From Oscillospiraceae bacterium (GTDB taxonomy: Bacteria; Bacillota; Clostridia; Oscillospirales; Ruminococcaceae): a DNA stretch of 58,754 bases. The position numbers and the translations under genes are program-made. Shown piece after piece: positions 12,201 through 58,241 of the stretch; position 1 is the first letter of the stretch; every line of letters begins with the position of its first letter. The notes under the pieces are model-generated. The model was not told the DNA's origin, did no database searches, and saw only the letters and a list, made by a program, of their open reading frames with translations. The stretch spans positions 1-58,754 of the forward strand of contig JAIKWY010000099.1 of NCBI GenBank assembly GCA_024684395.1, written 5' to 3'.

Positions 12201-12234
12201 AAGGGCTGTACAGCCCCATGACCGTACAGCCCTT
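12201..12234 (-). promoter_or_regulatory. intercistronic hairpin between precursor and maturase
   Basis: AAGGGCTGTAC (12201-12211) and GTACAGCCCTT (12224-12234) form an 11-base stem with a 12-base loop and no T-run. This fits partial termination or mRNA stabilisation, keeping precursor transcripts in excess over maturase. Confidence 0.65.
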
Positions 12235-12269
12235 CTGCTTTTGCAGTTGCTCTTGCTGTCTTGACATAA

Positions 12270-12374: not shown

Positions 12375-12447
12375 TGTTGTGTCACCTCCTCTCAAAGGTG
12401 TTGAAAGCCGGAGCTTTCCTGTACCACTTCATTCAGTGTACAATAGT

Positions 12448-12516
12448 ATTATACAACATTTTGACCGATTTGTCAACCCATAAAGTATGCCATTTCAAAA
12501 TACAGTTGTATACTTT
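12448..12516 (-). promoter_or_regulatory. promoter and candidate operator of the RiPP operon
   Basis: On the minus strand TTGACA (12476-12471), 17 bases and TATAAT (12453-12448) are perfect consensus. Just upstream an inverted repeat, AAAGTAT (12482-12488) and ATACTTT (12510-12516), ends 6 bases from the -35 box and is a likely site for the adjacent response regulator. The leader carries a small GAAAGC/GCTTTC hairpin (12403-12418). Confidence 0.75.
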
Positions 12517-12598
12517 GCTGAAAAAGCGGCTATATTTTATGTACAATTGCCAGAAGAATATGAAATATTTGTTAACTGTATGTAAACGATGTGTGAAA

Positions 12599-13300
12599 TC
12601 ATATCCAGCCGAATTGCAGGGCGATCCTGGCGGGTTTCCCGGTGAATTGCAGGGCGCTCATGTTGATGCCGATCTTGCCGTACTTCTTTTCGATGACCTC
12701 CTCGACGCCGATCTCTTTCAAAGAGTTGCCAAGATCCAGAATGAGCTGCCGCAGATAGCCTTTCTTGTCCGGATCGCCGTCCCACAGCACACCGAGCAGC
12801 TCGCCGTGTGTGCAGAAGGCGCCGTTTTTATAGACGAGGTAGGCAAACAGCTCCATCGTCTTTCCACGCTTGAACGTGTAGTTCTCATTGTCGAGGAATA
12901 CCGCAAAAGGGTCGCATTGTACCCGCAATCTGCTTTCTTCCTGTTCGATGGGGAACCGGAGTTCCTGTAGTTCGTGCAGGATGTCCTGCTCTGTCACAGG
13001 TTTGATGAGGATGCCGCTCGGGTGGACGCCGATCGCATCGAGGACATATTCCGGATGCCCCGTCACATAGATGATGTTGAGACGGTTGTACATCTGTTTC
13101 AGCTTCTTGGCGCCCTCGATGCCGTTGATCCCGGGCATCTCGATGTCCAGGAACAGGATCTGCACGTCGTCGCTCAGCAGATCAAAAGCCTCCTCCATGT
13201 TGGATGCCGTCATGTGTTTGCCGTTCGGGTCGATGTTGGTCAGCATCATTTTCATCAGCTCTGTGATGTCCTTCTGATCGTCTACAGATAATGTGATCAT
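12599..13300 (-). CDS. response regulator with OmpR/SARP-type winged helix
   Basis: A 233-residue regulator. The receiver domain has Asp52 as phosphoacceptor in LFLDIEMPG, an acidic DDQ pocket at 7-9 and Lys100. The C-terminal half (about 135-225) looks like the winged helix of OmpR/SARP proteins (MELFAYLVYKNG, then LRQLILDLGNSLKEIG), not a LytTR domain. Its start overlaps the kinase stop (ATGA). Position 224 bases upstream of the precursor, on the same strand, makes it the probable activator of the RiPP promoter. Confidence 0.85.
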   Translation of the reverse strand: MITLSVDDQKDITELMKMMLTNIDPNGKHMTASNMEEAFDLLSDDVQILFLDIEMPGINGIEGAKKLKQMYNRLNIIYVTGHPEYVLDAIGVHPSGILIKPVTEQDILHELQELRFPIEQEESRLRVQCDPFAVFLDNENYTFKRGKTMELFAYLVYKNGAFCTHGELLGVLWDGDPDKKGYLRQLILDLGNSLKEIGVEEVIEKKYGKIGINMSALQFTGKPARIALQFGWI

Positions 13301-32901: not shown

Positions 32902-33798
32902 TCATATGTGGATCCCGATGGAGAAGATCCCCTCGTCAAGCGATGCTCGGACGTCCCAGCCGAGCCGGTCACACAGCAGCTTCACCACGTACAGCCCAAG
33001 CCCCGAGCCGCCTGCTGTCCGGGCGTCCATCCGGTAGAACGGCTCAAACACACGCTCTATGTCGAGCGAAATGCAGTCCGCAAGGGAGTTGGACACGGTG
33101 AGTAGCACCTGTCCGCCATCCTGCCGGAGGGTCACGGAAAAGCGGTCGGCGGTGTATTTCCGGGCGTTGGACATGAGGTTGTCGAGGATGCGTTGCAGGG
33201 CGTGCGGATCGGTCTGCACCACGATGCCGTCCGCCAGATCAAACGCCGTGGAGATGCCCCGCTCCTCGATCCAGCCATGCTGCTCCAGGATGCTTTCGGT
33301 CAGGAGATTGCTGAGGTTGACGGGCTCCGGGTGAAGATCTCCCTCGTCGTTTTCGAGCTTCGTCAGCTCAAAAAACTCGTCGGAAAGCTCTTTGAGATAC
33401 CTGTTTTTTTGCATGGCGATCCGGAGATATTCTGCATGTGTATCAGACAGCTCGCCGCTCTTTTCGATCATTTGCAGATACCCGAGTGACGCCGTCAGCG
33501 GTGTGCGGAAATCATGGGAAATGCCGGAAATGGCCGTTCCGAGCCGGCGTTTCTGCTGCTCGTACTCCGTTCCAAGCTGCCGCTGCATGTCCGTGTGCTC
33601 GTTGACCTTCACGGCAAGCGCCACAAGATCCTTGTCAAAGTCTGTGACCTTGACAGGCTGGCGGTAATCGCTGGCTTTCAGCTTTTCAAGCTCCTGCGTG
33701 AAGCGGTGGATATTCTTTTTCAGCGAAAGATATTTCCAGAACAATACACTCAAAATGACAAGAAGGCACACGCAGGCTGTTCCGAGCAGAATTTCCAT
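32902..33798 (-). CDS. sensor histidine kinase with one N-terminal membrane helix
   Basis: A 298-residue kinase of the small intramembrane-sensing type. It has one hydrophobic segment (about 4-24), a short linker, the HisKA motif SGISHDFRTPLTA with phosphoacceptor His95, and an ATPase domain with DNLMSNARKY and GGSGLGLYVV. It lacks an extracellular domain, so it probably takes its signal from the adjacent ABC transporter. AAGGAGG precedes the ATG at 33798. The partner is the regulator at 35733. Confidence 0.9.
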   Translation of the reverse strand: MEILLGTACVCLLVILSVLFWKYLSLKKNIHRFTQELEKLKASDYRQPVKVTDFDKDLVALAVKVNEHTDMQRQLGTEYEQQKRRLGTAISGISHDFRTPLTASLGYLQMIEKSGELSDTHAEYLRIAMQKNRYLKELSDEFFELTKLENDEGDLHPEPVNLSNLLTESILEQHGWIEERGISTAFDLADGIVVQTDPHALQRILDNLMSNARKYTADRFSVTLRQDGGQVLLTVSNSLADCISLDIERVFEPFYRMDARTAGGSGLGLYVVKLLCDRLGWDVRASLDEGIFSIGIHI

Positions 33799-33856
33799 AG
33801 CGTGTACCTCCTTGTTATCTTTCATGCTTTTTTATGCAAGGGATGCATCTCTGAGC

Positions 33857-34600
33857 TTACATGGGAGAAATGATCTGGATCGCCCACTTCGATTTCAGCG
33901 ATTTGTATGCTGCGGCGGTCATTGCCGCAACAAGCACGATGGATGAAACGATGATCTTCAGTTCCAGATACGATGTATCCAGCGGCATAGAGATTTGTTC
34001 CAGTTCAACGTTGTTGACGCTGCCAAGCATCAGAAGCTGTGTACTGGTCAGCCATGATGCAGCTGCTGTCGCATCAAACGGCGTAAAGTTCTGGATGATG
34101 ACGAGTGGCATGGACTCAAAGGCGAATGCAAACAGGAAAACCATGATCCCACAGCCGTCCTTGAAGAAGATGCATAAAGCCTGTGCGGCCGCCGTCAGCT
34201 TGATCAGACAGATGAACAGCAGCACCAGCATCGGCAGATGCAGTTTTTCTCTGTCGAAGATGGTTAGCAGGATGACCGTCGGGATGTAATACAGTATCGT
34301 GACACAGGCTGACGAGACTATGATCCTGCACAGTATCGTCTGCATGGGCGGCGTGCCTTTCATGATCTCGTGGTTGATAAGACGGTTGTTGAATGTGTTG
34401 GAGACCAGCCCCACAACGCCGCAGATCACGATCACGACACCGACTGTGACGTGGTCGAAATATGTGATCACGTCGATATGCATCCCCTCGTTCCCGACAA
34501 ACTGCATGACCGTAGCAAGCAGTCCGATAAAGATCATTCCTGTCATCGTGTTTCCGCTGTGCCTGAGCCGGAATAATTCTGCTTTTATCAGATCATTCAT
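33857..34600 (-). CDS. ABC transporter permease
   Basis: A 247-residue protein with six hydrophobic segments (for example VGVVIVICGVVGLVSN and IIVSSIVLVAAMTAA) and the N-terminal LIKAELFRLRHSG typical of ABC-2 permeases for lantibiotic immunity or small-peptide export. It overlaps the 3' end of the ATPase gene by 8 bases. The substrate is unknown; self-protection against antimicrobial peptides is a common role in this gene order. Confidence 0.8.
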   Translation of the reverse strand: MNDLIKAELFRLRHSGNTMTGMIFIGLLATVMQFVGNEGMHIDVITYFDHVTVGVVIVICGVVGLVSNTFNNRLINHEIMKGTPPMQTILCRIIVSSACVTILYYIPTVILLTIFDREKLHLPMLVLLFICLIKLTAAAQALCIFFKDGCGIMVFLFAFAFESMPLVIIQNFTPFDATAAASWLTSTQLLMLGSVNNVELEQISMPLDTSYLELKIIVSSIVLVAAMTAAAYKSLKSKWAIQIISPM

Positions 34601-35507
34601 GCCTGCCACCTACCTTCTCGAGATAATAGTCCTCCAGGTTCTGCCCTTCCTCGTTGAGCTTCGTAATGATGAGCCCGCTGTCGGTCAGCGTTCTGGAGAT
34701 GCGGCGGATGTCGCCGAGCTGCTCGAAAATGTGGATCTCCTCGCCGTGGATGACCTTGTAATCCGCAATTTGCAGCTTTTCCTCGAGGACGGCTGCGGTT
34801 TTGTTGATGTCGTCCGTCCGCAGGGCGATGTGGTTCCTGCACTTCACAAGCAGCTCCTCACGGCTCAGGTTCTCGATGAGCTCGCCGTGGCTGAGGATGG
34901 AGAAATCCGTACATAGCTCGGAAAGCTCCGACAGCAGGTGACTGGAGATCAGGACGGTCACGCCCCATTCCTCCTGCATCCGCTGGATGAGCTGGCGCAC
35001 CTCCACGATGCCCTCCGGGTCGAGCCCGTTCACAGGCTCGTCGAGCACCATGACCTCCGGCTTCGGCAGAAGTGCCATACCGATACCAAGGCGCTGCTTC
35101 ATGCCGAGGGAGAATTTGCCGGCGCGCTTCTTTCCGGTGTCTGTAAGTCCGACCAGCTCCAAAATCTCGTCGATGCGTTTCTCATCCGGGTACCCCCGCA
35201 GATAGCGGATGTATTCGAGATTCTCCCGGGCTGTCATCGAGCCGGAAATGATGGGCTGTTCGATCATGAAGCTCATCCTTGCACGGGAATCGTCGAGGTT
35301 TTCGGGACTGCCGAAGTATTCGAGCTCGCCCTTGTCCGGAAACATGAGCCCCGCTAAGATCTTCATGATGGTGGTCTTGCCTGCGCCGTTCGGACCGATC
35401 AGCCCGCAGATATGTCCACGCTCCACCATCAGGCTGAAATCATGCAGGACTTCCTGCTTTTTGTAGGATTTGCAGAGCCCCCGCATGGTCATGACACTAT
35501 TTCCCAT
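34593..35507 (-). CDS. ABC transporter ATP-binding protein
   Basis: A 304-residue ATPase. Walker A GPNGAGKTT (38-46), signature FSLGMKQRLG, Walker B VMVLDEP and switch SSHLLSEL are present, with a C-terminal regulatory extension. This matches the CcmA/BcrA-like family that pairs with ABC-2 permeases. The ATG at 35507 lies behind AGGGGGCGGC. Upstream are four spaced direct repeats that look like response-regulator sites. Confidence 0.9.
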   Translation of the reverse strand: MGNSVMTMRGLCKSYKKQEVLHDFSLMVERGHICGLIGPNGAGKTTIMKILAGLMFPDKGELEYFGSPENLDDSRARMSFMIEQPIISGSMTARENLEYIRYLRGYPDEKRIDEILELVGLTDTGKKRAGKFSLGMKQRLGIGMALLPKPEVMVLDEPVNGLDPEGIVEVRQLIQRMQEEWGVTVLISSHLLSELSELCTDFSILSHGELIENLSREELLVKCRNHIALRTDDINKTAAVLEEKLQIADYKVIHGEEIHIFEQLGDIRRISRTLTDSGLIITKLNEEGQNLEDYYLEKVGGRHE

Positions 35508-35538
35508 AGCGCCGCCCCCTTTCGTATTCGTTGATTCT

Positions 35539-35594
35539 ATTGTAGCAGGCAAAGGTTCAGAAAAGGTTAAGCGAAGCGTTAAGAAATGGTTAAG
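35539..35594 (-). promoter_or_regulatory. candidate response-regulator operator and promoter of the ABC operon
   Basis: Minus-strand TACAAT (35544-35539) is preceded by four direct repeats of CTTAACC/CTTAACG/CTGAACC. On the plus strand they start at 35554, 35565, 35577 and 35588, with spacing 11, 12 and 11 bases, one helical turn each. OmpR-family regulators bind such repeats. The two nearest the -10 box cover the -35 region, suggesting activation. Confidence 0.7.
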
Positions 35595-35624
35595 ACGTGT
35601 GAAAATCATCTTTATCATAATAGC

Positions 35625-35705
35625 CCCCTCCGCCGCCGTTCGGCGGCACCTTCCCCGCAAGCGGGGGAGGACAGGGGGAGGGTGCTGCGCACCCTCAGAC
35701 CCGCT
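35625..35705. repeat. GC-rich palindromic intergenic repeat
   Basis: Several nested palindromes: CCGCCG/CGGCGG, CCCCGC/GCGGGG and GGGTGC/GCACCC, with CCCCTCC and GGGGGAGG at the outer parts. Similar in kind to the elements at 22004 and 25203. It contains no gene. Confidence 0.6.
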
Positions 35706-35732
35706 TTCATACATGATAATCAGAGCTTACTT

Positions 35733-36416
35733 TTAGGTCAGCCTGTAACCCATGCCCCAGACGGTCTCGATGTATTCCTGATCGGGGTCGAGCTTTTTGA
35801 GCTTGGAGCGGATGTTGCTCATGTGGACTTTGATGGTATTGTCGTCGCTGAGATATGCCTCGCCCCATATGCTCTCGAAGAGATTCGCCTTTGACCAGAG
35901 CTTTTGGGGATGCTCCAGCATCAGCGCCAGTATCGCAAATTCTTTGCTTGTCAGCGAAAGGGGAGCGCCGCTGACAGATGCGGTGCCGGCTGTGGTATCG
36001 AGCGTCAGATTCTTGTAGGTCAGAGGCTTGGTGTGCTGCTGGCGTGACGTGCCCGCATACCGCCGCAGGACGGCTTCCACACGCACCAGCAGTTCATCCA
36101 CATCAAAGGGCTTTGTCAGATAATCGTCAGCCCCCATGCGGATCAGGTCGATCTTTGAGGAGGTCTCGCTTTTGGCAGATACGACGATGACGGGGATGTC
36201 CGAGAAATCCCGGATCTTTTGCAGCACCATATCGCCGCTCTGAAAGGGAAGCATCAGGTCGAGGATCAGCAGAGCAAGTTCGCTTTGTTCCCGGACGATG
36301 CGCACAGCATCGAGCCCGTTCATGGCAGACAGCGTTTCATAGCCCTGTGTGGACAGATAGTTACAGATCAGACGGTTGATCTCCTTGTCGTCCTCTGCGA
36401 TGAGGATCTTTTGCAT
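35733..36416 (-). CDS. OmpR-family response regulator
   Basis: A 227-residue regulator. The receiver domain has the DD pair at 9-10, phosphoacceptor Asp53 (ILDLMLP) and the Lys of YLTKPF. The C-terminal winged helix (LTSKEFAILALMLEHP, IKVHMSNIRSKL, VWGMGYRLT) is complete. It lies upstream of the ABC transporter and kinase on the same strand and probably controls them through the repeats at 35554-35594. Confidence 0.93.
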   Translation of the reverse strand: MQKILIAEDDKEINRLICNYLSTQGYETLSAMNGLDAVRIVREQSELALLILDLMLPFQSGDMVLQKIRDFSDIPVIVVSAKSETSSKIDLIRMGADDYLTKPFDVDELLVRVEAVLRRYAGTSRQQHTKPLTYKNLTLDTTAGTASVSGAPLSLTSKEFAILALMLEHPQKLWSKANLFESIWGEAYLSDDNTIKVHMSNIRSKLKKLDPDQEYIETVWGMGYRLT

Positions 36417-37391: not shown

Positions 37392-37464
37392 GGGCCCGTA
37401 GCTCAGCTGGGAGAGTGCCGCGTTCGCAATGCGGAGGTCGAGGGTTCGATCCCCTTCGGGTCCA
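37392..37464 (+). tRNA. tRNA-Ala (anticodon CGC)
   Basis: A 73-base cloverleaf. The acceptor GGGCCCG pairs with CGGGTCC and has G3-U70, the alanine identity pair. The anticodon loop is TTCGCAA with anticodon CGC; the T arm has GGTTCGATCC; the discriminator is A37464. CCA is not encoded. Its 3' end forms part of a direct repeat found again at 55371, so it looks like an integration target. Confidence 0.95.
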
Positions 37465-37490
37465 CTGATTTTAAATGCGTAATCGGAACG
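37456..37490 (+). repeat. left copy of the tRNA 3'-end direct repeat (putative att site)
   Basis: TCGGGTCCACTG (37456-37467), then after an unmatched gap ATGCGTAATCGGAA (37475-37488). The same two blocks in the same order recur at 55371-55382 and 55389-55403. The first block contains the last 9 bases of tRNA-Ala. Confidence 0.65.
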
Positions 37491-38077: not shown

Positions 38078-38121
38078 AAGTAGAATTTCTACTTGACATA
38101 AGAATTGAATCGTGATATAAT
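38078..38121 (+). promoter_or_regulatory. precursor promoter with overlapping palindromic operator
   Basis: AAGTAGAA-T-TTCTACTT (38078-38094) is a perfect 8+1+8 palindrome. It overlaps by two bases the TTGACA box (38093-38098), which is 17 bases from TATAAT (38116-38121). This fits repression by the divergent XRE protein. Confidence 0.75.
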
Positions 38122-38263: not shown

Positions 38264-38446
38264 ATGTTCAAACTCACAGAGGAAATTATGAAAAAAATCG
38301 AATCTGTACTTGTAGTAAAGCAGTTTGCACTGGAAAACGGCAATGGTATCAAGCTCGAAATGACTTGCAGACTGAATTGCTCAAACACTTGTGGCGGTGG
38401 CTGCAGAGGCAACTGTACTGGAAGTTGCCACAATAGTTCAAGATGA
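38264..38446 (+). CDS. Cys-rich RiPP precursor, six Cys at four-residue spacing
   Basis: A 60-residue peptide; the ATG at 38264 is 6 bases after GGAGGTG (an in-frame GTG at 38255 overlaps that site). Residues 1-33 are a leader-like helix (KLTEEIMKKIESVLVVKQF). The tail has Cys at 35, 39, 43, 47, 51 and 55, an exact CX3C ladder, with Gly before several Cys (CGGGCRGNC) and the end CHNSSR. A radical SAM/SPASM enzyme follows. Six-Cys precursors beside such enzymes receive Cys-derived thioether links in sactipeptide and ranthipeptide families. This one is not the SCIFF peptide. Confidence 0.9.
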   Translation: MFKLTEEIMKKIESVLVVKQFALENGNGIKLEMTCRLNCSNTCGGGCRGNCTGSCHNSSR

Positions 38447-38456
38447 GTTCTTAGGC

Positions 38457-38482
38457 ATGCCGCAAGGAGATCCTTGCGGCAT
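38457..38482 (+). promoter_or_regulatory. intercistronic hairpin between precursor and maturase
   Basis: ATGCCGCAAGGA (38457-38468) and TCCTTGCGGCAT (38471-38482) are perfectly complementary, with outer TAGG/CCTA pairing possible. No T-run follows. Same position and probable job as the hairpin at 12201 in the first RiPP locus. Confidence 0.65.
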
Positions 38483-38508
38483 TGTCCTAATACAAATGAG
38501 GAATGATT

Positions 38509-39982: not shown

Positions 39983-40022
39983 TATAATTCCGATAAGGTT
40001 AACAGCCTTATCGGAATTTTTG
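39983..40022 (+). promoter_or_regulatory. TATAAT box merged with a terminator hairpin before the amidoligase operon
   Basis: TATAAT (39983-39988) overlaps the left arm of a 13-base stem, AATTCCGATAAGG (39986-39998) with CCTTATCGGAATT (40006-40018), followed by TTTT. The operon's first ribosome binding site starts 4 bases later. Upstream transcripts would end here. Confidence 0.55.
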
Positions 40023-40040
40023 TTTTTGGGAGGTAGACGT

Positions 40041-40307
40041 ATGAAACTACTGGAAGCAATGTACCGCGGCAAAGTCCAGAACCTCAGTGAGCTGAACCGG
40101 TGGGACAAGCGGTATGCGAAACTGCTGGATCAGATCGTAGAGGTCGAGGAGCGGATCATGAAGATCTCACCGGAGGCAAGTGAGCTGCTGCATCAGTATC
40201 AGGATCTGCATGGGAAGCTCGATAGCTTAACAGCCTATCATGAATTCTGCACCGGATTCCGTGTCGGCGCACAGCTCATGGCAGAAATGCTGGAAGATTT
40301 CGATTGA
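40041..40307 (+). CDS. DUF6809-like helical protein
   Basis: An 88-residue helical protein with the pattern MKLLEAMYRGKV, a charged coiled middle (VEVEERIMKISPEASELL) and LTAYHEFCTGFRVGAQLMAEML. This matches what I know of DUF6809, a family of small accessory proteins in Bacillota mobile elements. GGGAGGT precedes the ATG. First gene of the amidoligase operon. Function unknown. Confidence 0.75.
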   Translation: MKLLEAMYRGKVQNLSELNRWDKRYAKLLDQIVEVEERIMKISPEASELLHQYQDLHGKLDSLTAYHEFCTGFRVGAQLMAEMLEDFD

Positions 40308-40334
40308 TCGACCAAAGATATGGAGGTAATTGCT

Positions 40335-41426
40335 ATGGAAGAAAACACAAGGATCTGTGACATCTGCGGGCGTGAGATGGAAGAGGGCGAAGGCGTATGG
40401 GTTGGCGACCAGCTTGTCTGTGAAGACTGCTTCGAGGATGGAGGAACAACATGTGACCACTGCGGTGAAAACATCTGGATCTCTGATGCCGTACAGGACG
40501 ATGACATGACGCTGTGCCAGACCTGTTATGATGATTACTATCACCGTTGCGAATGCTGCGGAAGGATCATTCACGACAATAACACATATTGGCGTGGGGA
40601 TTATCCGTACTGCGAGCCCTGCTACGAGGATTTCGATGATGAGATCGAGGATTACCATTACAAGCCGCAGCCACGCTTCTTAGGCACAGGTGACCGCTAT
40701 CTTGGGGTGGAGCTGGAAGTGGACTGCGGCGGCAAGGACGATGATAATGCGAAAATCCTAAAAGATCTTGCCAATGCGGACGGTGAGCGAATCTACATCA
40801 AGTCTGACGGCAGTCTGGATGACGGATTTGAGATCGTATCACATCCGATGACACTGGACTATCATATGAATAACATGGACTGGGAAACTCTCTTGCAGGA
40901 AGCTGTCCGCATGGACTACCGCAGTCACCAGACCTCTACCTGTGGGCTGCACATTCATGTGAATAGGAATGCTTTCGTGGAGAATCAGGCAGAGCAGGAA
41001 GTGGTCATCGGGAAGATCCTGTACTTCATCGAGAAGCATTGGAATGAGGTGTTCTGTTTCTCCCGCCGCAGCAAGCACAACATGAATCGCTGGGCTGCAA
41101 GGTATGGCTACGAAAAGACCGGAGAGGAGATCCTGAAGAAGGCTAAAGAGAGTGGTCACGGTCGCTACTGTGCCATCAATCTTTGCAACTATGATACGAT
41201 CGAGTTCCGGTTGTTCCGGGGCACGCTGAAACTGAATACATTTCTTGCCACATTGCAGTTTGTCGATACCATCTGCGATGTGGCTTTTTCTATGTCCCAG
41301 ACTGATCTGGAGGCACTGTCGTGGTCGGAATTTGTAAGTCATATCGAATATCCGGAGCTGGTGCAGTATCTCAAGGAGCGTAACCTGTATATCAATGAGC
41401 ATGTGTTTGCAGAGGAGGATGTTTGA
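40335..41426 (+). CDS. amidoligase with N-terminal LIM-like zinc fingers
   Basis: A 363-residue protein. Residues 8-96 hold six CxxC-type pairs (Cys8/11, 29/32, 40/43, 61/64, 72/75, 93/96), reading as three treble-clef or LIM-like modules. From 120 on there is an amidoligase of the glutamine-synthetase/GCS fold (Amidoligase_2 type): YLGVELEVD, KSDGSLDDGFEIVSHPM, CGLHIHVNR and IEFRLFRGTL, with the expected Glu, His and Arg residues. Such enzymes join an amine and a carboxylate with ATP. With the glutamine amidotransferase two genes on, ammonia from glutamine may be the amine source. The fingers could bind the substrate protein or nucleic acid. GGAGGT precedes the ATG at 40335. Confidence 0.85.
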   Translation: MEENTRICDICGREMEEGEGVWVGDQLVCEDCFEDGGTTCDHCGENIWISDAVQDDDMTLCQTCYDDYYHRCECCGRIIHDNNTYWRGDYPYCEPCYEDFDDEIEDYHYKPQPRFLGTGDRYLGVELEVDCGGKDDDNAKILKDLANADGERIYIKSDGSLDDGFEIVSHPMTLDYHMNNMDWETLLQEAVRMDYRSHQTSTCGLHIHVNRNAFVENQAEQEVVIGKILYFIEKHWNEVFCFSRRSKHNMNRWAARYGYEKTGEEILKKAKESGHGRYCAINLCNYDTIEFRLFRGTLKLNTFLATLQFVDTICDVAFSMSQTDLEALSWSEFVSHIEYPELVQYLKERNLYINEHVFAEEDV

Positions 41427-41650
41427 TGAATCAGAAGAAGATCGAGCTTTACAAGATGGCTTATTCGGCAGGGACAAGGATCCGTCTTGACCACATGGAG
41501 GATCCGTATGCGCCGGTTCCTGATGGGACAGATGGTACCGTGTTCTGTGTGGATGATCTGGGAACCATTCATGTGGATTTTGACAATGGCAGAAGCCTTG
41601 GCATCTGTCCTGATGTAGATCGGTTTCATAAGATCGGAGGTGATGTATAA
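41426..41650 (+). CDS. DUF4314-like small protein
   Basis: A 74-residue protein with a beta-barrel pattern: AGTRIRLDHMEDPYAPVPDGTDG, then TVFCVDDLGTIHVDFDNGRSL. This matches DUF4314, which is often found next to amidoligase genes. It overlaps the amidoligase stop by one base and the next start by one base (TAATG), so all three proteins are translationally coupled. Role unknown, perhaps an adaptor. Confidence 0.8.
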   Translation: MNQKKIELYKMAYSAGTRIRLDHMEDPYAPVPDGTDGTVFCVDDLGTIHVDFDNGRSLGICPDVDRFHKIGGDV

Positions 41651-42594
41651 TGTGTGCTGTTTTCGGATTCCTGGACTATGGCAAGAAGGTTTCGGCAAGG
41701 ACGTTGAAGCGGCTTCTGCAAGCGCTTTCTGTTGCTGCGGAATGCAGAGGGAGAGATGCGACCGGCATGAGCTATGTGAAGCGTGGGAAGATCGTGACAT
41801 TCAAGAAGGCAAAGCCCGCTCACAAGGTCAAGCTGTACTTTCCGAGAGGAACCACTGCGGTGATCGGACATACCCGCTTTACTACACAAGGCAGCGAGAA
41901 ACACAATTATAATAACCATCCTTTTGAAGGCAAGGCTGGCGGTCATTCATTTGCTCTGGCGCATAATGGGGTACTGTATAATGACGTGAAGCTGCGCCGG
42001 GAACAGGGCTTGCCGGAGACAAAGATCGAGACTGATAGCTATATTGCTGTCCAGCTTCTGGAGCAACAGGATGCAGTGGATGAAGAGTCTTTGCGGTATA
42101 TGGCTGAGACTGTTGCAGGCAATTTTGTGTTCAGCATTCTCAGGGACGACAACACGCTGTTCCTGGTGAAGGGTGATAATCCTCTGACGCTCTGGCATCT
42201 GCCGTCAGTGGGACTGCTTGTCTATGCTTCAACGGATGAAATACTGCAAAAAGCCGTGCTTGCTTCCAAGATCCAGAGCGCCATTTTCCCTGTTCCGGTC
42301 AATGCGGATGAGATCATCTGCATCCACCCTGACGGCAGCATGACACGGTCGGCTTTTACGCAGCAGATGAGTCCACTTTACTTTAGACCCCTTGTCAACT
42401 GGGAGCCTTGCGCCGAGGAAGTTGCGGATTATGAAGAAGAATTGCATCTGCTGTGCCAATGCTACAACGCCGATGAGAAGGAGGTGAGAGCGCTGCTTGA
42501 ATTTGGCTATGGTCTGGACGAGATCGAAGAGCTGTTAGCGGACGGGTATTTCCCCTATGCACTGGAAGATGTAAGACAATGTTATGAATTTTGA
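41650..42594 (+). CDS. class II glutamine amidotransferase
   Basis: A 314-residue protein with the N-terminal nucleophile Cys2 (MCAVFGF). Glutamine-site blocks follow: RGRDATGM (33-40), GHTRFTTQG (73-81), AHNGVLYND and ETDSYIA. The C-terminal about 110 residues are helical and unassigned; no synthetase domain is fused. The enzyme would release ammonia from glutamine for the amidoligase encoded upstream. It is not GlmS, PurF or asparagine synthetase by length and context. Confidence 0.88.
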   Translation: MCAVFGFLDYGKKVSARTLKRLLQALSVAAECRGRDATGMSYVKRGKIVTFKKAKPAHKVKLYFPRGTTAVIGHTRFTTQGSEKHNYNNHPFEGKAGGHSFALAHNGVLYNDVKLRREQGLPETKIETDSYIAVQLLEQQDAVDEESLRYMAETVAGNFVFSILRDDNTLFLVKGDNPLTLWHLPSVGLLVYASTDEILQKAVLASKIQSAIFPVPVNADEIICIHPDGSMTRSAFTQQMSPLYFRPLVNWEPCAEEVADYEEELHLLCQCYNADEKEVRALLEFGYGLDEIEELLADGYFPYALEDVRQCYEF

Positions 42595-42822: not shown

Positions 42823-42839
42823 GCAGCATGGAGGACACT

Positions 42840-43388
42840 ATGGAAACAGAAAGAGGAACTGTGCAAACAGAAGCAATTTTTACGCAGGCGCATACCCACC
42901 GGCTGCTGCTTCGGAAAGTGTGGGACAAGACAAGGCCGACCGCCTCTATCATCATGATCAATCCGCATACTGCCAGCACATTCTATACAGATGCCACAAC
43001 GATGTACACGCTGAATCATTTATATCAGCTCGGCTTCGGGACGGCAAATCTTTTAAATCTGTATACCAGAATATGTGAACGGCTTGCCCTGCGCTTCAAC
43101 TCGGATGAAGACCTGCTCGATCCGCAGAATGATGAGATGATCCTGAAATGTGCAGCGGAATCGGATACGATCATCATCGCGTGGGGTAGTGCCGGACACA
43201 ATAGTCAGCGGGTAAGAGATCGTCAGGCAGAGCTTCTGGATCTGCTAAAAACCTATCCATTAAAGAGCATCACAGATGGCGGTGACACGGCGTATCATCC
43301 GCTGTCGCCTGCGGTGCGTGACAGGTGGATCCTGAAAGATTACGTAGGTGTGGAGCATGATGCGTATAACAACGGTACAGGAAATTGA
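42840..43388 (+). CDS. DUF1643-like protein
   Basis: A 182-residue soluble protein with the DUF1643 pattern: ASIIMINPHTASTFYTDATT, then YQLGFGTANLLNLYTRI, and DTIIIAWGSAGHN. The family is widespread in phages and mobile elements and has no known activity. The ATG at 42840 is 4 bases after GGAGG; the ATG at 42828 is part of that site. Confidence 0.8.
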   Translation: METERGTVQTEAIFTQAHTHRLLLRKVWDKTRPTASIIMINPHTASTFYTDATTMYTLNHLYQLGFGTANLLNLYTRICERLALRFNSDEDLLDPQNDEMILKCAAESDTIIIAWGSAGHNSQRVRDRQAELLDLLKTYPLKSITDGGDTAYHPLSPAVRDRWILKDYVGVEHDAYNNGTGN

Positions 43389-43389: not shown

Positions 43390-43650
43390 ATGATCCCGCA
43401 GGAACATTTACGGGAGTATCTCCTGCGCAAAACAAAAGCGATGTTTGCGGAATATGGCGTTGACAGTATGGACAGCATCGGGTGCTATTTGATTTTCAAT
43501 GAGGACGAATTTTCGCAGTTTCCAATGTCAGCCTCGGAATTCGTGGAAATCGATATCATTGAAGAGACAGCCTATCTGCATGGAGTACAGATACTTTCCG
43601 ATGACTATGCCGAGGACATTTACATGCCGATCGGGGTGGTACAATGCTGA
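43390..43650 (+). CDS. hypothetical protein, 86 residues
   Basis: The ATG at 43390 lies one base after the DUF1643 stop. Small acidic protein, mixed alpha/beta (SMDSIGCYLIFNEDEFSQF), no family recognised. The stop overlaps the serine recombinase start by 7 bases, which ties it to that gene's translation. Confidence 0.6.
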   Translation: MIPQEHLREYLLRKTKAMFAEYGVDSMDSIGCYLIFNEDEFSQFPMSASEFVEIDIIEETAYLHGVQILSDDYAEDIYMPIGVVQC

Positions 43651-45197
43651 ACATTCAGAGGGTGGCGCTGTATGCAAGATTCAGCTCAGATAACCAGAGG
43701 ACGGAGAGCATTGATGCGCAGATCCGCGCCATGAAGAAATACTGCCAACAGCAGCACTGGCAGATCGTTGCGACCTATGTCGATGAGGCCAGGAGTGCGA
43801 CAACGGATAAACGCCCGCAGTTTCAGCAGATGATCGCTGACAGCGCAAAGGGGCTTTTCGATATACTGCTTGTGCATAAGCTTGACCGGTTCAGCCGTGA
43901 CCGGTATGATTCTGCCATCTACAAGAAGCGACTGAAAAAGAATCATGTGCAGCTGCGCAGTGTTCTGGAAAGGATCGATGACAGCCCCGAGTCGATTTTG
44001 ATGGAATCGCTGTTGGAAGGCTTATCCGAATACTACAGTCGGAATCTGAGCCGGGAAACGAAAAAAGGCCTTGCAGAAAATGCTCTGAAAGGGAAGTCAA
44101 CAGGAGGATGCGCACCGATCGGATTTGACTTTGATGATGATAACCATCTGGTCATCAACGAGCATGAGGCTGAGGCTGTGCGTGCCATTTTTCACATGTA
44201 TGCGGCTGGGCAGGGGTACACGGCAATTCTGGACTATCTGCATGAAAACGGTTACACGACAAAGCGGGGGACGCCGTTTCTCAAATCCAGTCTTGTGACG
44301 ATCCTTGCTAACGAAAAATATGCAGGGGTGTACGTGTACAATCAGTCGGTGCCGCGCAAGCTCAAAAATCCTGCCTACAAAGGCAGAAAGAAACCGGAGG
44401 AAGAGATCATACGGGTGCCGGGAGCGTGCCCTGCCATCATCAGCCACGAACTATATGACACCGTACAAAAACGCAGGCGGCATAACCGTGAGCGGCAAGG
44501 CAGCTTCTACAGCAAGGAGCTTTATCTGGTATCCGGTAAGGTCATCTGCGGGATCTGCGGCAGGGTCTATCAGGGGAACCTACGGTACAGCAGCGGCAGC
44601 CACAGCCGGTTTGCCGCCTACCGCTGTGAAACGCACAAGGCCAAGTGCGGCAACAAGGAAATGAATAAGGATTATCTGGACTTGTATATCATCGAGCTTC
44701 TGGGGCAAAAAGTGTTCAACAAACGGTCATTGAAGAAGCATATCGCCGCGGTGAACCGGTACATTTCGCAATACAATGCCGCCTATGATGAACGATATGC
44801 AGTGCTAAAAGCGGAACTGGATGAGGTTGCCGAGAGTCTTGCCAACCTGACCGCTGCAATTGAGAGGGGCATGATCACCGATTCGATGATCGAGCGTGCC
44901 GATGAACTGGAGACCCGAAGAAATACGTTGGTGGTACAGATCACCGGGATGCATCAGTATCATGAGGTTGCCTATGAGGAATATGCCTATCTGATCGATG
45001 AGTTCCACGATACACCGCATAACAGCGAGAAATACCGTGCGCTGGTGCAGCGGTTCGTGCGGCGCATCACGGTATATCCATATCAGATGGAGACAATGCT
45101 CGATCTGGGATTCGGGATCACGGATGAATTGACTGAGACGATAACGATCCGCCGAGGCGATCTCTATGCAAAATACAAAGGAGGACAGGATGTTTGA
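43644..45197 (+). CDS. large serine recombinase (1 of 3 intact)
   Basis: A 517-residue site-specific recombinase. The resolvase domain has the nucleophile Ser14 in YARFSSD, then LLVHKLDRFSRDRYDS. The recombinase domain follows (LNEK-like ILANEKYAGVYVYNQ), then a zinc ribbon (CGICGRVYQGNL with later Cys pair), a coiled coil of about 390-470 and a C-terminal end. All parts expected for an active integrase/excisionase are present. It overlaps the genes on both sides. The insertion site it uses is not identified here; serine enzymes seldom use tRNA genes. Confidence 0.93.
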   Translation: MLNIQRVALYARFSSDNQRTESIDAQIRAMKKYCQQQHWQIVATYVDEARSATTDKRPQFQQMIADSAKGLFDILLVHKLDRFSRDRYDSAIYKKRLKKNHVQLRSVLERIDDSPESILMESLLEGLSEYYSRNLSRETKKGLAENALKGKSTGGCAPIGFDFDDDNHLVINEHEAEAVRAIFHMYAAGQGYTAILDYLHENGYTTKRGTPFLKSSLVTILANEKYAGVYVYNQSVPRKLKNPAYKGRKKPEEEIIRVPGACPAIISHELYDTVQKRRRHNRERQGSFYSKELYLVSGKVICGICGRVYQGNLRYSSGSHSRFAAYRCETHKAKCGNKEMNKDYLDLYIIELLGQKVFNKRSLKKHIAAVNRYISQYNAAYDERYAVLKAELDEVAESLANLTAAIERGMITDSMIERADELETRRNTLVVQITGMHQYHEVAYEEYAYLIDEFHDTPHNSEKYRALVQRFVRRITVYPYQMETMLDLGFGITDELTETITIRRGDLYAKYKGGQDV

Positions 45198-49339: not shown

Positions 49340-50872
49340 ATGCAAAAATATAATAGTTTGAGCGCTGTAGCCTACGTTAGGTACAGCTCCCATATGCAGG
49401 ATGACGGGAACAGCGTAGCAGCGCAAACGACCAGTATCTCCACCTACGCGGAATCAAACGGAATGGAAATAGAGGGCTGGTACATCGACATGGCGAGAAC
49501 CGGTCGTAATACCAACCGTCAGGAATACCAAAGAATGAAGCAGGATATCGAGGACGGCAAGGTTCAAGCAAAGGTTATACTTGTAAGAGCAATCGACAGA
49601 ATGCACCGTAACGCCAAGAATCAGCTGATAGACGTCGAATGGTGTGAAAAGCACGGTATCCGCATCATAGGCGTTTCTGACGGAACTGATACAGCAACAG
49701 AGGCGAGCAAGCTCCTGATCACAGTCAAGGCGGCGGTTGCGGAAGACTTCTCTAATACGCTGTCGAAGAATACGAGAGCTGCACTACTGGAATGTGCCAA
49801 GGCGTGCAAGCATCTCGGCGGTACTCCTCCGCTCGGATATACGGTCAACAGCGAGGGTACATACGATATAGACGAAAGCACTGCCCCGATCATCCGCGCC
49901 ATCTACAAGCTGTATCTGCAGGATATGGGCTACAACTATATCATGAAATACTTGAAGAATAAGGGTTACAAGACCTCAGAGGGCAACGATTTCAGTAAGG
50001 CTTCGTTGAATGCGATTCTGCGCAATCCGAAGTACAAAGGGACATATACCTATGACCGTACTGCACCGAAGGACTCAGACGGCAAGCGCAATTCTCATGC
50101 GGAGAAGACACAGTACACGGTCATAGAGAACGGAATGCCTGCAATCATCTCTGCCGAGGACTTCGACAAGGTGCAGGCGAAAATGAAAGCAAATGCCGGC
50201 AGACACGCTCAGAGAGCCGGCAGCAACTACTATGCATTAAACGGCAAGATCAAGTGCGCAGACTGCGGCAGAGCTGTTACCGGCAATGTGAATTACAGCA
50301 AGGGCAAGAAGTATCTCCAGTACCGCTGCACCTGTGACTGCAAACACAAATCCATCCAAGTGAACAGATTCAACGATGTGACCTTCTACGCTCTGCAGCA
50401 GTGCCTGTTCAGTGCTGATAATAAGGAAAGAATCGTTGGGATCATGAACGATCAGCTGAGATTAGAGGCACATCAGAGATCGGCAGAGGTTGCTGCAATC
50501 AAGGACAAAATCGACAAGCTGAATCTCGCTCAGAATCATCTTTTGGCATCTCTGGAGGCGGGGCAGGCTACTGATACGATCATGAAGAAGCTGGAGAAGA
50601 ATGAAGCGGAGATCGCTGCTCTAACGGAGCAGCTCGAAGCAAAAGTATCTGATGTATCAGCCGTGGACGACAACACCTATAACGAGCTTGTCAAGCACTT
50701 TGTGAGCTATATGGGAAACCAGAAGACACCACAGGCGGTTGACCTGAGAAACGCTGCAATCGACCGCATTGAGGTCGGCAGTGACAAGACCACGATTTTT
50801 TTTAAACATGGTGTCAGCATCAACCAGGATACACAGACCTATTTCGACAACGAGAAGAACTGGGAGGCGTGA
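49340..50872 (+). CDS. large serine recombinase (2 of 3 intact)
   Basis: A 510-residue recombinase. Ser16 in YVRYSSHMQ is the expected nucleophile, with RAIDRMHRN in the resolvase domain, a recombinase domain (ILRNPKYKGTYTYDR), a zinc ribbon (CADCGRAVTGN, then CTCDC), a coiled coil and a C-terminal strand (TTIFFKHG). It is only distantly similar to the other two. AAAGGA precedes the ATG. With the upstream helicase it forms one replication-integration module. Confidence 0.93.
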   Translation: MQKYNSLSAVAYVRYSSHMQDDGNSVAAQTTSISTYAESNGMEIEGWYIDMARTGRNTNRQEYQRMKQDIEDGKVQAKVILVRAIDRMHRNAKNQLIDVEWCEKHGIRIIGVSDGTDTATEASKLLITVKAAVAEDFSNTLSKNTRAALLECAKACKHLGGTPPLGYTVNSEGTYDIDESTAPIIRAIYKLYLQDMGYNYIMKYLKNKGYKTSEGNDFSKASLNAILRNPKYKGTYTYDRTAPKDSDGKRNSHAEKTQYTVIENGMPAIISAEDFDKVQAKMKANAGRHAQRAGSNYYALNGKIKCADCGRAVTGNVNYSKGKKYLQYRCTCDCKHKSIQVNRFNDVTFYALQQCLFSADNKERIVGIMNDQLRLEAHQRSAEVAAIKDKIDKLNLAQNHLLASLEAGQATDTIMKKLEKNEAEIAALTEQLEAKVSDVSAVDDNTYNELVKHFVSYMGNQKTPQAVDLRNAAIDRIEVGSDKTTIFFKHGVSINQDTQTYFDNEKNWEA

Positions 50873-52634: not shown

Positions 52635-53891
52635 ATGGAGGATCATACGCTTCGGGTAGCGTGCTACGGACGTTATTCTACTGCATTGCAGCGGGAAGAG
52701 TCAATCTCCGCCCAGCTCAGGGCTATGAAGCGCTACTGCGACGAGAACGGCTGGACAATCGTCAGATGCTACATTGACCGGGCGTGCAGCGGCTCGACCG
52801 ACAATCGTCCGCAGTTTCAGAAGATGATCAAAGATTCCGATGATCACGGATTCGATATCGTTCTTGTACACCAGCTGAGCCGGTTTGCCCGCAGCCGGTA
52901 TGACTCCAATATCTACAAGAACAGGCTGCGCAAAAACGGTGTGCGGTTGTGCAGTGTGCTGGAGAAAATAGATGATTCGCCGGAATCCATTTTGCTGGAA
53001 GGTCTGCTGGAAGCGATCAACGAGTTTTATATCGCCAACATAGCAAGGGAAAGTTTGAAGGGCTTGAAGGAAAATGCCTACAAAGCGCTGCACAATGGCG
53101 GTTGTCCCGGGCTCGGGTACAATGTGGACAAAACGAGGCATCTTGTGGTCAATGAGGAAGAGGCCAGAATCGTTGCAATGATATTCGGAATGTACATAGC
53201 CGGATATAGCTGTACACAGATTGCAGATCTGCTGAATGAGGACGGCTACTGCACCAAAGCAGGAAACCCGTTTACCCAAACAGCCGTCCGCACCGTGCTC
53301 CGCAACGAAAAATACACAGGCATCTACATCTACAACAAGCGGGAAGCCAAGGGCTATGACCACAAGCGCCCCTGCCGCGACAAGCCTGCTGAAGAGATCA
53401 TCCGCATCGAGGGAGGCATACCTGCGATCATCAGCCGGGACATCTGGGAGGCGGCACAGCAGCGGCTGCATCGTGGCCGCTGCACATTCCGAATCACAAA
53501 AGCGATGCACCTGCTCAGCGGCAAGGTCAGATGCGGCATTTGTGGAGCCGTCATGCAGGGAACGATCCGGCAACGGAAGGCCAAAGAGCCGTTTCGCAAC
53601 TACGTCTGCCGGACGAAAGCGGCAGAGTGCGACAATTTCAAGGAGATCGACAGTGACAGTCTGGAGCGCTGCGTCATCGAATTGGTGAAGGCACACTGCA
53701 ATGCTCCTGCCACGCTCTATAACGTCTCACAGGGCTCTCCGCCGTTCCGCTTGGCACTGCAATCCTGCATCCATAGCATCACCGTGTACAAGCGTACTGT
53801 GATCATACGGCTGTATGTGAACGGTGAGGTCAGGACTTTCCGGCGAGGACGTAAGGCATTCAGGACACCAACGCAGAGGTGCTTCATTTAA
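52635..53891 (+). CDS. large serine recombinase, short form (3 of 3 intact)
   Basis: A 418-residue relative of the enzyme at 43644 (shared VLEKIDDSPESILLE). Ser15 in YGRYSTALQ is the expected nucleophile; LVHQLSRFARSRYDS, the recombinase domain (VLRNEKYTGIYIYNK) and a zinc ribbon (CGICGAVMQGTI, later Cys pair) are complete. The usual coiled-coil of about 80-100 residues after the ribbon is missing, yet a normal C-terminal strand (ITVYKRTVIIRLYVNG) remains, so it looks like an internal deletion. Without the coiled coil, synapsis control would be altered. AAGGGGGG precedes the ATG. Confidence 0.9.
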   Translation: MEDHTLRVACYGRYSTALQREESISAQLRAMKRYCDENGWTIVRCYIDRACSGSTDNRPQFQKMIKDSDDHGFDIVLVHQLSRFARSRYDSNIYKNRLRKNGVRLCSVLEKIDDSPESILLEGLLEAINEFYIANIARESLKGLKENAYKALHNGGCPGLGYNVDKTRHLVVNEEEARIVAMIFGMYIAGYSCTQIADLLNEDGYCTKAGNPFTQTAVRTVLRNEKYTGIYIYNKREAKGYDHKRPCRDKPAEEIIRIEGGIPAIISRDIWEAAQQRLHRGRCTFRITKAMHLLSGKVRCGICGAVMQGTIRQRKAKEPFRNYVCRTKAAECDNFKEIDSDSLERCVIELVKAHCNAPATLYNVSQGSPPFRLALQSCIHSITVYKRTVIIRLYVNGEVRTFRRGRKAFRTPTQRCFI

Positions 53892-55888: not shown

Positions 55889-55947
55889 GTGATAGGATCA
55901 TTGCCGCTTGGTGCGTGTTGACGTACCAAGCGGCTTTTTGCTATCAC
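55889..55947 (+). terminator. nested terminator/attenuator in the helicase leader
   Basis: Inner stem GCCGCTTGGT (55903-55912) with ACCAAGCGGC (55925-55934) plus TTTTT, enclosed by GTGATAG (55889-55895) and CTATCAC (55941-55947). The outer stem competes with the T-run geometry, so read-through may be conditional. AGGAGG follows at 55957. Confidence 0.7.
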
Positions 55948-55970
55948 CATTAAAACAGGAGGCAGAATAT

Positions 55971-58241
55971 ATGATAACCAAAAAACGAAATAAGTTAAAT
56001 TTAATAGAGAAAAAAGGTAGTTCGAACCAAGAACAGAGCAACCCCACTCAGAAGCAAATGGTTAATAATAAGCAAGTTCAGAGCGTCCCCGATCAGAAGC
56101 AAATGGTAAATAGTAAGCAAGTTCAGAACATCTCCAATCAGAAGCAAATGGTTCTTAACGAGTTACCGGTGGGTAAGTCTGTAGAGGAACTGTTAAGCTA
56201 TATCAGTGTTAGTGCTGATGGTACTAAGGTGTACCATCGTGAAATCGACCACTTTGATACGATCGAGATTACAGAGGATGAGGCTGATATTTGCAAGAAG
56301 ATTGGAATTAAGAGCTTTTACTTTGACTCATGCAATAGGCCACACCCCTGCACCGTTGTTAAAGCACACATGGCTTGGGCGATGCTCAATCCCAAAGAAG
56401 AAGATAAGCCGTATTCACTAACATATCTTGCGAAAAGCTTTGAGCTGATTCGTAAGGTGAAGGCAGCGGACGGAACGGTATACCTTGATATTAGAATCGG
56501 AGATGACTTGAGCACAAAGGACATCAGATTCCCGAGCACGGTCACTACCCAAAAAGGGGTTACGAAACTGGAAAGGTTCAATATCGCTTTGAATCCAAGT
56601 TTCAGTGAAACAGTTGCTTTTGCACTCGGGAATATCGCTGAAAAGCTCCCGACGGAGGATGCATCTGCACAGCTTGGTGTTGTTCCAGATCCCACTACTG
56701 GAAAACTGAGATTTCTTGCGTATGGGGAGAATGGAATGTTCAAGATGCATACCAATTATGAGCGACATGATGACTTCATTGCAGATTTTAATGATTTAAT
56801 CAAGAAAAGCAAACCGCTACAGTATCTATTGTGTGCAACTATGTCGGCAACAGTTCTGACGATTTTGCAGAAAGACTACACTCTCCACCTTAACTCGTAC
56901 TGTATTAATATTGTGGGTCCAAGCTCTACGGGAAAAACAATTGCGCAGAGAACTTGTGCTGCTGTTTGGACAAACCCAAATGACGATGCAATTTTTTCGG
57001 CAATGTTAAGCACTGGAAATGCAGCGTTAAAGAGACTTTCCGGGCGATACGGTATTCCCACTTTTGTAGATGAGAGCACAGTCCTTGGTGGTGTGAAAGC
57101 GAGTGAATATGCCTACTCAGTTTATGAGGGTAGGGAGAAACGTAGACTGAACTCTGATTGCTCCGAAAAGCCTTCCGGCACTTGGTCTACAATTGTTTGT
57201 ATGTCAAGTGAGGAGCATTTCCATGATACTGGTAAGAACCAGAATGGTGGACTTGCTGTTCGGGTTCATTCAATGGAAAACCTTGCTTGGACTGTTAGTA
57301 AGGAGCATGCTGAAGATTTGAATGAATTTATTCGTAGAAATTATGGCATCATAGGGTACAAATATACGCAGCTATTGTTTGGCGAAACGATTTATAAATC
57401 ACTTCCTAAGCGTTATCGTAAAGCAAAGGAATGTATGGAGCAGTATTGTGATCCCTATCGCAACCAGTTCACGGATCGTTTGTGCCAGACTTATGCACTC
57501 ACGTATATGACTGGAGAACTGCTATCGGGTCTGTGCTTGGAAATTGACCTGAAGGGGGTAGCCAACATCATGGTAGAACACAATCAGATGGTCGGAAAGG
57601 AGCAGAACATCGCTCAGAACGCATTTAGAACCATCGTGTCCTATATGACTCGCAATCCTCTGAAAAGCGGAATTCGCCGTTACCAAGATAAACAATCGAG
57701 TGCTGTTACCAAGATCGCAGTTGAGGAGAGTCTACTCAGAGAGATTTTGAGTAAAAATGGCTTTCATGACTTTTCGGTGGCAATTCGTGAGTTAGACAAG
57801 GCAGGTTTTCTCATTCGACAGGTGGAGAAGGGGTTGAAAAGCAAATTGACAATTGATGGAAATTTGTGCTGGTGCTACCAGATTGATATGGGCGAGTTTT
57901 GTAGTGACTCCATTGCAACCCAGACCAATCCAGCAACGCATCATGATAACCACATTTCAAAATATTTGGATGATAGCATCAATCTTGAGGATAGTGAAGA
58001 GGATGACGAGGAGTATGACACTCTCGATGTAGACGAGGACGAGAACGAGTCATCTGCTGATTCCGAGGATGAGGACGAGTCATATGCCGACTTCGAGGAT
58101 GAGGGCGAGTCATTTGCCGTCTCCGAGGATGAGAACGAGCCATTTGATGACTTCGAGGATAAGAAAACCATCTCGGATGATCTGGATGAACCCCTTGTTT
58201 TTAACGAGGAAGATGAAGAACGTCTGTTTTATTTCAACTAA
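55971..58241 (+). CDS. DUF927-type helicase/primase-like ATPase with repeat-bearing ends (module 2)
   Basis: A 756-residue protein; ATG at 55971 behind AGGAGG. Residues of about 23-62 are a 15-residue Gln/Val repeat (QKQMVNNKQVQSVPD, about 2.6 copies). The ATPase core has Walker A GPSSTGKT (about 315-323), FVDESTVLGG as the acidic strand and RRNYGIIGYKYTQLL further on. The tail (about 694-733) is a 10-residue acidic repeat in four copies (for example SYADFEDEGE). Same architecture as the module 1 protein but larger and AT-rich. Probably the replication helicase of a second element. Confidence 0.8.
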   Translation: MITKKRNKLNLIEKKGSSNQEQSNPTQKQMVNNKQVQSVPDQKQMVNSKQVQNISNQKQMVLNELPVGKSVEELLSYISVSADGTKVYHREIDHFDTIEITEDEADICKKIGIKSFYFDSCNRPHPCTVVKAHMAWAMLNPKEEDKPYSLTYLAKSFELIRKVKAADGTVYLDIRIGDDLSTKDIRFPSTVTTQKGVTKLERFNIALNPSFSETVAFALGNIAEKLPTEDASAQLGVVPDPTTGKLRFLAYGENGMFKMHTNYERHDDFIADFNDLIKKSKPLQYLLCATMSATVLTILQKDYTLHLNSYCINIVGPSSTGKTIAQRTCAAVWTNPNDDAIFSAMLSTGNAALKRLSGRYGIPTFVDESTVLGGVKASEYAYSVYEGREKRRLNSDCSEKPSGTWSTIVCMSSEEHFHDTGKNQNGGLAVRVHSMENLAWTVSKEHAEDLNEFIRRNYGIIGYKYTQLLFGETIYKSLPKRYRKAKECMEQYCDPYRNQFTDRLCQTYALTYMTGELLSGLCLEIDLKGVANIMVEHNQMVGKEQNIAQNAFRTIVSYMTRNPLKSGIRRYQDKQSSAVTKIAVEESLLREILSKNGFHDFSVAIRELDKAGFLIRQVEKGLKSKLTIDGNLCWCYQIDMGEFCSDSIATQTNPATHHDNHISKYLDDSINLEDSEEDDEEYDTLDVDEDENESSADSEDEDESYADFEDEGESFAVSEDENEPFDDFEDKKTISDDLDEPLVFNEEDEERLFYFN
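58050..58169 (+). repeat. 30-bp tandem repeat, four copies (acidic tail)
   Basis: Units start at 58050, 58080, 58110 and 58140, each encoding ten residues with a central FEDE or SEDE. Third positions are nearly fixed (GAGGATGAG), indicating recent expansion. Confidence 0.8.

Follow-up and report, generated by a model that had tools for sequence, protein, structure and literature searches.

Peptides with Cys at four-residue intervals, encoded next to a radical SAM/SPASM maturase, have already been named: NCBIfam holds models for CXXX-repeat precursors (TIGR04114, TIGR04117 and TIGR04118) and for their maturases (TIGR04115 and TIGR04119), and a CX3C ladder by itself is not new. Among the matches listed from open-licence papers, we found no characterised product of a CXXX-repeat system. 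The SCIFF ranthipeptides (precursor TIGR03973; maturase TIGR03974, CteB) likewise have six Cys, spaced C-x2-C-x3-C-x3-C-x3-C-x6-C, with the central four in the same CX3C ladder; for such six-Cys peptides the available text of PMC8326336 reports a single thioether, which joins Cys32 (the fourth Cys) to Thr34 or Thr37, acceptors located, going by the SCIFF sequences of this study, within or just after the last CX3C, and it also describes a Cys-to-Asn link in NxxcA. In the freyrasin system (PapA/PapB, NF047865) the Cys register again repeats every four residues, and PapA is, in the accessible part of PMC9413430, a CX3D peptide with Cys-Asp links. CefB (NF038107, Cys-every-fifth) is a radical SAM/SPASM maturase with a regular Cys periodicity by its name, which implies a different period. 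The enzymes with known products that are related to the one studied here, PapB, QhpD and CteB, use Cys as the thioether donor (PMC11002830, from the portion available).

Here we analyse a peptide and maturase pair in a window of 58,754 nucleotides (the whole stretch of DNA that was analysed, from an Oscillospiraceae bacterium), with the coordinates of its features given in Table 1. Translation of the 183 bases of the precursor gene yields MFKLTEEIMKKIESVLVVKQFALENGNGIKLEMTCRLNCSNTCGGGCRGNCTGSCHNSSR, in which Cys at positions 35, 39, 43, 47, 51 and 55 form five perfect Cys-Xaa-Xaa-Xaa repeats. The exact four-residue steps claimed by the sequence-only reading are thereby confirmed. With the composition of the tail (residues 31-60) held fixed, chance would place its six Cys on an exact period-4 ladder with P 1.7e-5 (8e-5 when periods from 2 to 7 all count), and a six-rung ladder was reached in 13 of 1,000,000 shuffles.

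Table 1. Features of the precursor-maturase locus and its surroundings in the window.
Feature	Coordinates	Strand	Remarks
tRNA-Ala(CGC), left neighbour	37392..37465	+	
Divergent Cro/C1-type HTH protein, 116 aa	37671..38021	-	
Perfect 8-nt inverted repeat AAGTAGAA-T-TTCTACTT	38078..38094	.	touches -35
TTGACA-N17-TATAAT promoter-like site	38093..38121	+	12/12, TG before -10
Precursor peptide gene, 60 aa	38264..38446	+	exact six-Cys CX3C ladder
Stem-loop between precursor and maturase	38451..38490	+	-26.4 kcal/mol, z -5.0
Radical SAM/SPASM maturase, 371 aa	38509..39624	+	upstream ATG at 38503 possible
DUF6809 protein	40020..40307	+	
Amidoligase_2-like protein	40320..41426	+	61% in L005, 52% relative on L008/L076 contig
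Class II glutamine amidotransferase-domain protein	41650..42594	+	55% in L005
DUF1643 protein	42828..43388	+	51% in L005
CcrB-like large serine recombinase	43644..45197	+	182.3 bits, cut-off 900; 57% in L005
Second large serine recombinase	49340..50872	+	
Third large serine recombinase	52635..53891	+	
Cch1-like cassette helicase	55908..58241	+	92.5 bits, cut-off 700; DUF927

With an RBS (GGGAGG, 8 nt upstream of the ATG), a consensus promoter, a strong hairpin and then a radical SAM/SPASM gene, the precursor ORF looks like a real gene. A longer reading from a GTG at 38255 exists as an alternative start; relatives have MFKL, MFKI or MFNI at the position of the ATG start. The peptide has a charged leader that begins MFKLTEEIMKKIESVLVV. 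Gly, Asn, Ser and Thr make up 15 of the 26 residues from 35 to 60, and because these are poor helix formers we did not adopt the earlier picture of Cys lining one face of a helix. Asp and Glu are absent from residues 33-60; the CX3D/E motifs of the PapB/freyrasin type are thus lacking, and Cys-Asp links of the freyrasin type are impossible in this core. Used as a query, the precursor gave 62 pattern matches and zero relatives in genome contigs. Across the 297 genomes of the family it returned its own genome and two weak matches, one being a TIGR04115-type locus (G209) and the other a locus (G134, L010) with no ladder ORF among the ORFs listed.

The maturase starts 62 nt downstream of the precursor stop. 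Its best NCBIfam matches are PapB (NF047865; 134.9 bits, cut-off 340) and TIGR04115 (107.1 bits, cut-off 350), followed by nif11-type, QhpD, CcpM and SCIFF maturases, so that the best-scoring named families are peptide maturases, PapB, QhpD and SCIFF among them thioether-forming. A CX3CX2C radical SAM cluster (C20, C24 and C27) and seven SPASM Cys (C243, C261, C296, C299, C305, C308 and C327) are present, all of them invariant across six aligned enzymes, namely that of the window and five relatives at 71-36% identity. Between the window and its nearest relative, locus L005, pN is 0.20 and pS 0.80 (saturated), values that indicate purifying selection on the maturase. The available text of PMC10470005 gives the PapB ligands as C119/C123/C126, C352/C370/C421 and C408/C411/C417/C440. 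The spacings C243-x17-C261, C296-x2-C299-x5-C305 and C308-x18-C327 match C352/C370, C408/C411/C417 and C421/C440 of PapB, the sole mismatch being CX3C in PapB where the window enzyme has CX2C (C305-C308); the first radical SAM Cys lies at 119 in PapB and at residue 20 here, leaving about 100 extra N-terminal residues in PapB (same partial source, PMC10470005). An AlphaFold2 model of the maturase (mean pLDDT 86.5) has CteB (5wgg) as its top fold match, with E 1.2e-16 and a TM of 0.70 by query length, in an alignment that begins at CteB residue 96. Both PapB and CteB have a longer N-terminal region than the window maturase, and the part missing here is presumably a leader-binding domain. Support for the claimed pairing of the peptide with a radical SAM/SPASM enzyme comes from the families matched, the closeness of the model to CteB and a ladder kept in several relatives.

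The precursor falls below the CXXX-repeat cut-offs (TIGR04114, 14.3 bits against 20; TIGR04117, 16.4 against 50; TIGR04118, none listed) and the maturase reaches 25.1 bits against TIGR04119 (cut-off 150), for which its own genome has nothing above the cut-off. These weak precursor matches, the identical exact spacing and the presence of the same ladders at three of four TIGR04115-type loci are what one would expect if the pair were an ordinary outlier of the CXXX-repeat family (TIGR04114/17/18, TIGR04115) that differs by sequence drift only. We consider this unlikely, given the TIGR04119 result and a TIGR04115 score of 107 against 350 for an enzyme of 371 aa, where CXXX-repeat maturases have about 700 aa and the enzymes of L013 and L017 reach 507 and 554 bits, both also passing TIGR04119; the peptide of L017 passes TIGR04118. 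In a tree of 19 maturases, moreover, the window enzyme lies within a compact clade of 12 rows (support 97/96), separate from the four TIGR04115 rows, which group together (100/98). PapB is absent from this tree, none of 169 genomes having a match above the PapB cut-off. The window and L005 pair with support 99/96, and L008 joins them at 100/98; the deeper branching order is weakly supported, and several branches are long. Eight other compact-clade enzymes (L005, L008, L015, L016, L011, L021, L018 and L012) likewise stay below both cut-offs, with 119-160 bits for PapB and 87-137 bits for TIGR04115.

SCIFF models give a similar outcome. Against TIGR03973 (cut-off 50 bits) no match of the precursor is listed at E up to 10, a setting at which weak ones may be filtered, and the three SCIFF controls tested (L082, L084 and L095) score 71-84 bits; the core sequence of SCIFF is absent from the window peptide. 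The maturase scores 64 bits against TIGR03974 (cut-off 425) and 58 against CefB (cut-off 600). In the accessible part of PMC13289728, the Hungate1000 survey, ranthipeptides are defined by TIGR03973, which the window peptide does not match. The host genome carries a separate SCIFF-like pair elsewhere (L097). The sequence-only reading had called the SCIFF spacing different, which is right for the outer x2 and x6 intervals and wrong for the central four Cys. Its proposal of a distinct subgroup likewise stands on other grounds than those given: the failed cut-offs and the tree support a distinct subgroup, and the spacing does not, being partly shared with SCIFF and fully with CXXX-repeat peptides. 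What is known, then, is the CXXX ladder with its maturase; what is unusual here is the combination of failed precursor and maturase cut-offs, a separate supported clade, a short N-terminus and a core free of Asp and Glu.

Relatives of the maturase are rare and patchy in the genomes sampled. Counting the host genome each time, they occur in 2 of 38 genomes of the genus (E 1e-20), 5 of 297 of the family (E 1e-30; G209 and G123, two of these, fall in the TIGR04115 group of the tree), 4 of 391 of the class (E 1e-30; G529 among them is a TIGR04115 maturase), 1 of 394 of the order (alignment A1, E 1e-60) and 3 of 398 of the phylum (alignment A1, E 1e-45). Genome contigs searched with the enzyme yielded L005, from a Ruminococcus flavefaciens MAG (70%), and a 24% match, L006, which was left out of comparisons. 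Plasmid records gave three matches (39%, 29% and 30%) and phage records five (37% to 24%). An IMG/VR scan with the maturase alone returned no match; with alignment A1 it returned 52 distant loci at 21-35% identity, which we do not count as relatives. At 14 of these 52 there are ORFs in which four or more Cys form a run (nine of a CTCTCTC type, four of an NYCTCNC type, and L050), and five of the 52 pass the four-Cys ladder rule defined below when the CTCTCTC type is left out. Nine of the viral contigs (L027, L029, L030, L032-L036 and L066) have radical SAM genes downstream of a protein of about 190 aa that ends in long CTCTCTC runs, two such genes in seven of the nine, and in L057, L065, L067 and L069 viral NYCTCNC-rich proteins lie near radical SAM genes.

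To follow the ladder itself we scored a locus as positive when a short ORF beside the maturase had at least four consecutive CX3C cysteines. Six of the 11 compact-clade loci, the window included, are positive, with six rungs in the window, seven in L005, five in L015, eight in L079/L011 and four each in L080 and L021; no run of four Cys is found at L008, L016, L018, L012 and L081. About half of the clade thus keeps the spacing. The sequence-only reading had made conserved spacing among relatives its own test, and with five of 11 loci lacking a run of four, that test therefore goes against it in part. The peptide of L005 keeps all six Cys at only 37% identity to the window precursor. At L008, whose enzyme is the second closest (59%), the ladder is degraded, with Thr at one rung and an MFNI leader followed by a CX7CX3C remnant, and L016 has CX4C only. 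The rule is also passed by 10 of the 15 SCIFF-type loci (L082-L096), the other five being without a SCIFF-spaced peptide, and therefore the ladder does not single out one chemistry; against the PapB model, maturases adjoining SCIFF-type peptides reach as much as 299 bits.

Several compact-clade loci have unusual neighbours. L021 (615-3780), a phage contig from the human gut that is unverified, has its ladder peptide flanked by two distinct radical SAM genes, and the tree places both in the compact clade. In L012 (1189-3744) a small peptide with the end CASGCGMCGYGSN separates the compact-clade maturase from a gene for a B12-binding radical SAM protein, which is truncated by the end of the locus. 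In L079 (6661-8784), the locus of G254 with an eight-rung ladder peptide, a UvrA-like ATPase (UvrA_DNA-bind) stands directly 3' of the compact-clade maturase.

The composition of the repeats bears on what the Cys might be joined to; in the well-scoring enzymes whose chemistry is known, the partner of the Cys sulphur is a carbon of a side chain. In 25 repeats from five compact-clade precursors (L080 left out), Gly occupies X2 in 12 and X3 is Ser, Asn, Thr, Gly or Ala in 22, while Asp or Glu occurs in two, against 10 of 36 repeats of TIGR04115-type peptides; with Asp and Glu so scarce and X3 so composed, thioethers to Asn, Ser or Thr would therefore be expected. A polar core of Gly, Asn and Ser that holds six Cys could also serve a peptide that binds metal or works in redox reactions (Cu, Zn or Fe-S thiolates), the enzyme then modifying something else or one residue. 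The single link reported for a SCIFF peptide with a similar ladder (PMC8326336, available text) fits such a role, as does the fact that export genes were not recognised next to the pair. Ladders nevertheless adjoin maturases of two separate enzyme clades, and the donor role of Cys in PapB, QhpD and CteB (PMC11002830, in part) points the same way, which makes a metal or redox peptide quite unlikely.

We regard the pair as probably a minimal two-gene RiPP unit near ccr/cch-like genes, whose compact maturase would link the ladder Cys as thioethers. This reading builds on gene anatomy, conservation, enzyme family and setting, and would add to them leader binding, thioether formation, the choice of acceptors and regulation. 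The maturase would bind the charged leader, its CX3CX2C cluster would generate the 5'-deoxyadenosyl radical, and its auxiliary cluster would hold each Cys thiolate, which would then be bonded to carbon in a residue close by, the cycle repeating at four-residue steps. The product might act as a signal, an antimicrobial or a metal ligand. With Asp and Glu missing from residues 33-60 and Gly alone filling the repeat C43-GGG-C47, the acceptors should be residues other than Asp and Glu: presumably Asn, Thr or Ser at a non-alpha carbon and, for C43-GGG-C47, the alpha-carbon of a Gly or an acceptor further away. For the repeats rich in Gly, sactionine linkages are an equal possibility. A regular set of rings on the ladder is plausible. 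Against the two-gene RiPP reading stand the five of 11 loci without a run of four and the degraded ladder of L008, as do PapB and CXXX scores far under the cut-offs, the ladders at 10 of 15 SCIFF-type loci, the lack of a recognisable exporter, protease or immunity gene among the neighbours tested, and the one thioether only that the accessible text gives for SCIFF (PMC8326336).

The -10 element of the promoter-like site ends 142 nt before the precursor ATG. A 12/12 site precedes the unit in the window, L005, L008 and L015, and not in L079 or L080; the same pattern occurs four times in the window and is a common form. The inverted repeat beside it, of which neither L005 nor L008 was found to have a copy, may serve the adjacent HTH protein as an operator. 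HTH_3 proteins lie upstream in L005 and L008 also, without BLAST similarity to that of the window, which gives no support to a shared regulator. A role of the 116-aa protein as a peptide-sensing TPR receptor was dropped because Pfam gives only HTH families for it. In L005 an 80-aa ORF (2246-2488) lies between the consensus promoter and the precursor; none was noticed in the window. Stem-loops between precursor and maturase folded in six loci had z values of -5.0 (window), -2.6 (L005), -0.7 (L015), -8.3 (L079), -4.6 (L080) and -3.0 (L008), that of L015 being no more stable than shuffles (45 of 200 as good). In the proposed unit the divergent Cro/C1-type protein and the consensus promoter would probably control expression, and the hairpin may lower the maturase relative to the precursor and so favour an excess of peptide.

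The gene order of L005 is that of the window (peptide, maturase, amidoligase-like, GATase, DUF1643, small, CcrB-like, small; 36-70% identity), and the L008 contig (L076) has relatives of the amidoligase-like and GATase genes with a phage-type integrase nearby. The SCC cut-offs for a ccr-type recombinase and a cch-type helicase were not reached, and with CcrB and Cch1 scores so far under them the setting is therefore SCC-like at most. The ends of this region were not found, and the window contains no exact second copy, of 14 nt or more, of the tRNA end that would mark the far side of the island. None of the neighbouring genes tested was recognisable as an exporter, a protease or an immunity gene. 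Further upstream (32902-36416) are genes for an ABC transporter and a two-component system; since the tRNA and a TetR gene separate them from the pair, we do not count them as part of the unit. A patchy distribution (the 2 of 38 genomes of the genus include the host), the degraded ladder of L008 and three large serine recombinases to the right could be read as signs of degenerating mobile cargo whose peptide is no longer made or modified; with every cluster Cys intact, the maturase under purifying selection, and promoter, RBS and hairpin intact, this is very improbable. The position of the unit beside ccr/cch-like genes suggests that such RiPPs can be mobile cargo.

We know of no product of the compact maturase clade. 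A bolder extension of the two-gene RiPP reading, which we put forward tentatively and consider doubtful, is that a stand-alone SPASM clade lacking both the PapB/CteB N-terminal region and carboxylate acceptors staples at a four-residue pitch (up to eight rungs, L011) onto carbons of Gly, Asn, Ser or Thr or onto the beta-carbon of the next Cys. The result would be a ribbon of many thioether rings at regular intervals, different from freyrasin, SCIFF and known sactipeptides and spread by SCC-like cassettes. At 371 and 60 aa, enzyme and peptide are small, which makes the pair a convenient test of ladder crosslinking without Asp or Glu, and a maturase without the N-terminal recognition region would test how such a SPASM enzyme reads its leader. 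An enzyme that staples at four-residue steps would also serve peptide engineering.

The window holds a second radical SAM/SPASM RiPP-type cluster on the reverse strand (7670-14682), the precursor of which was not located. Its maturase (10796-12166) scores 124 of 525 bits against TIGR04463, and the cluster also contains a weakly HprK/ScmC-like protein, a PqqD-like and a signal-peptidase-like protein, an ABC exporter and a response regulator/histidine kinase pair.
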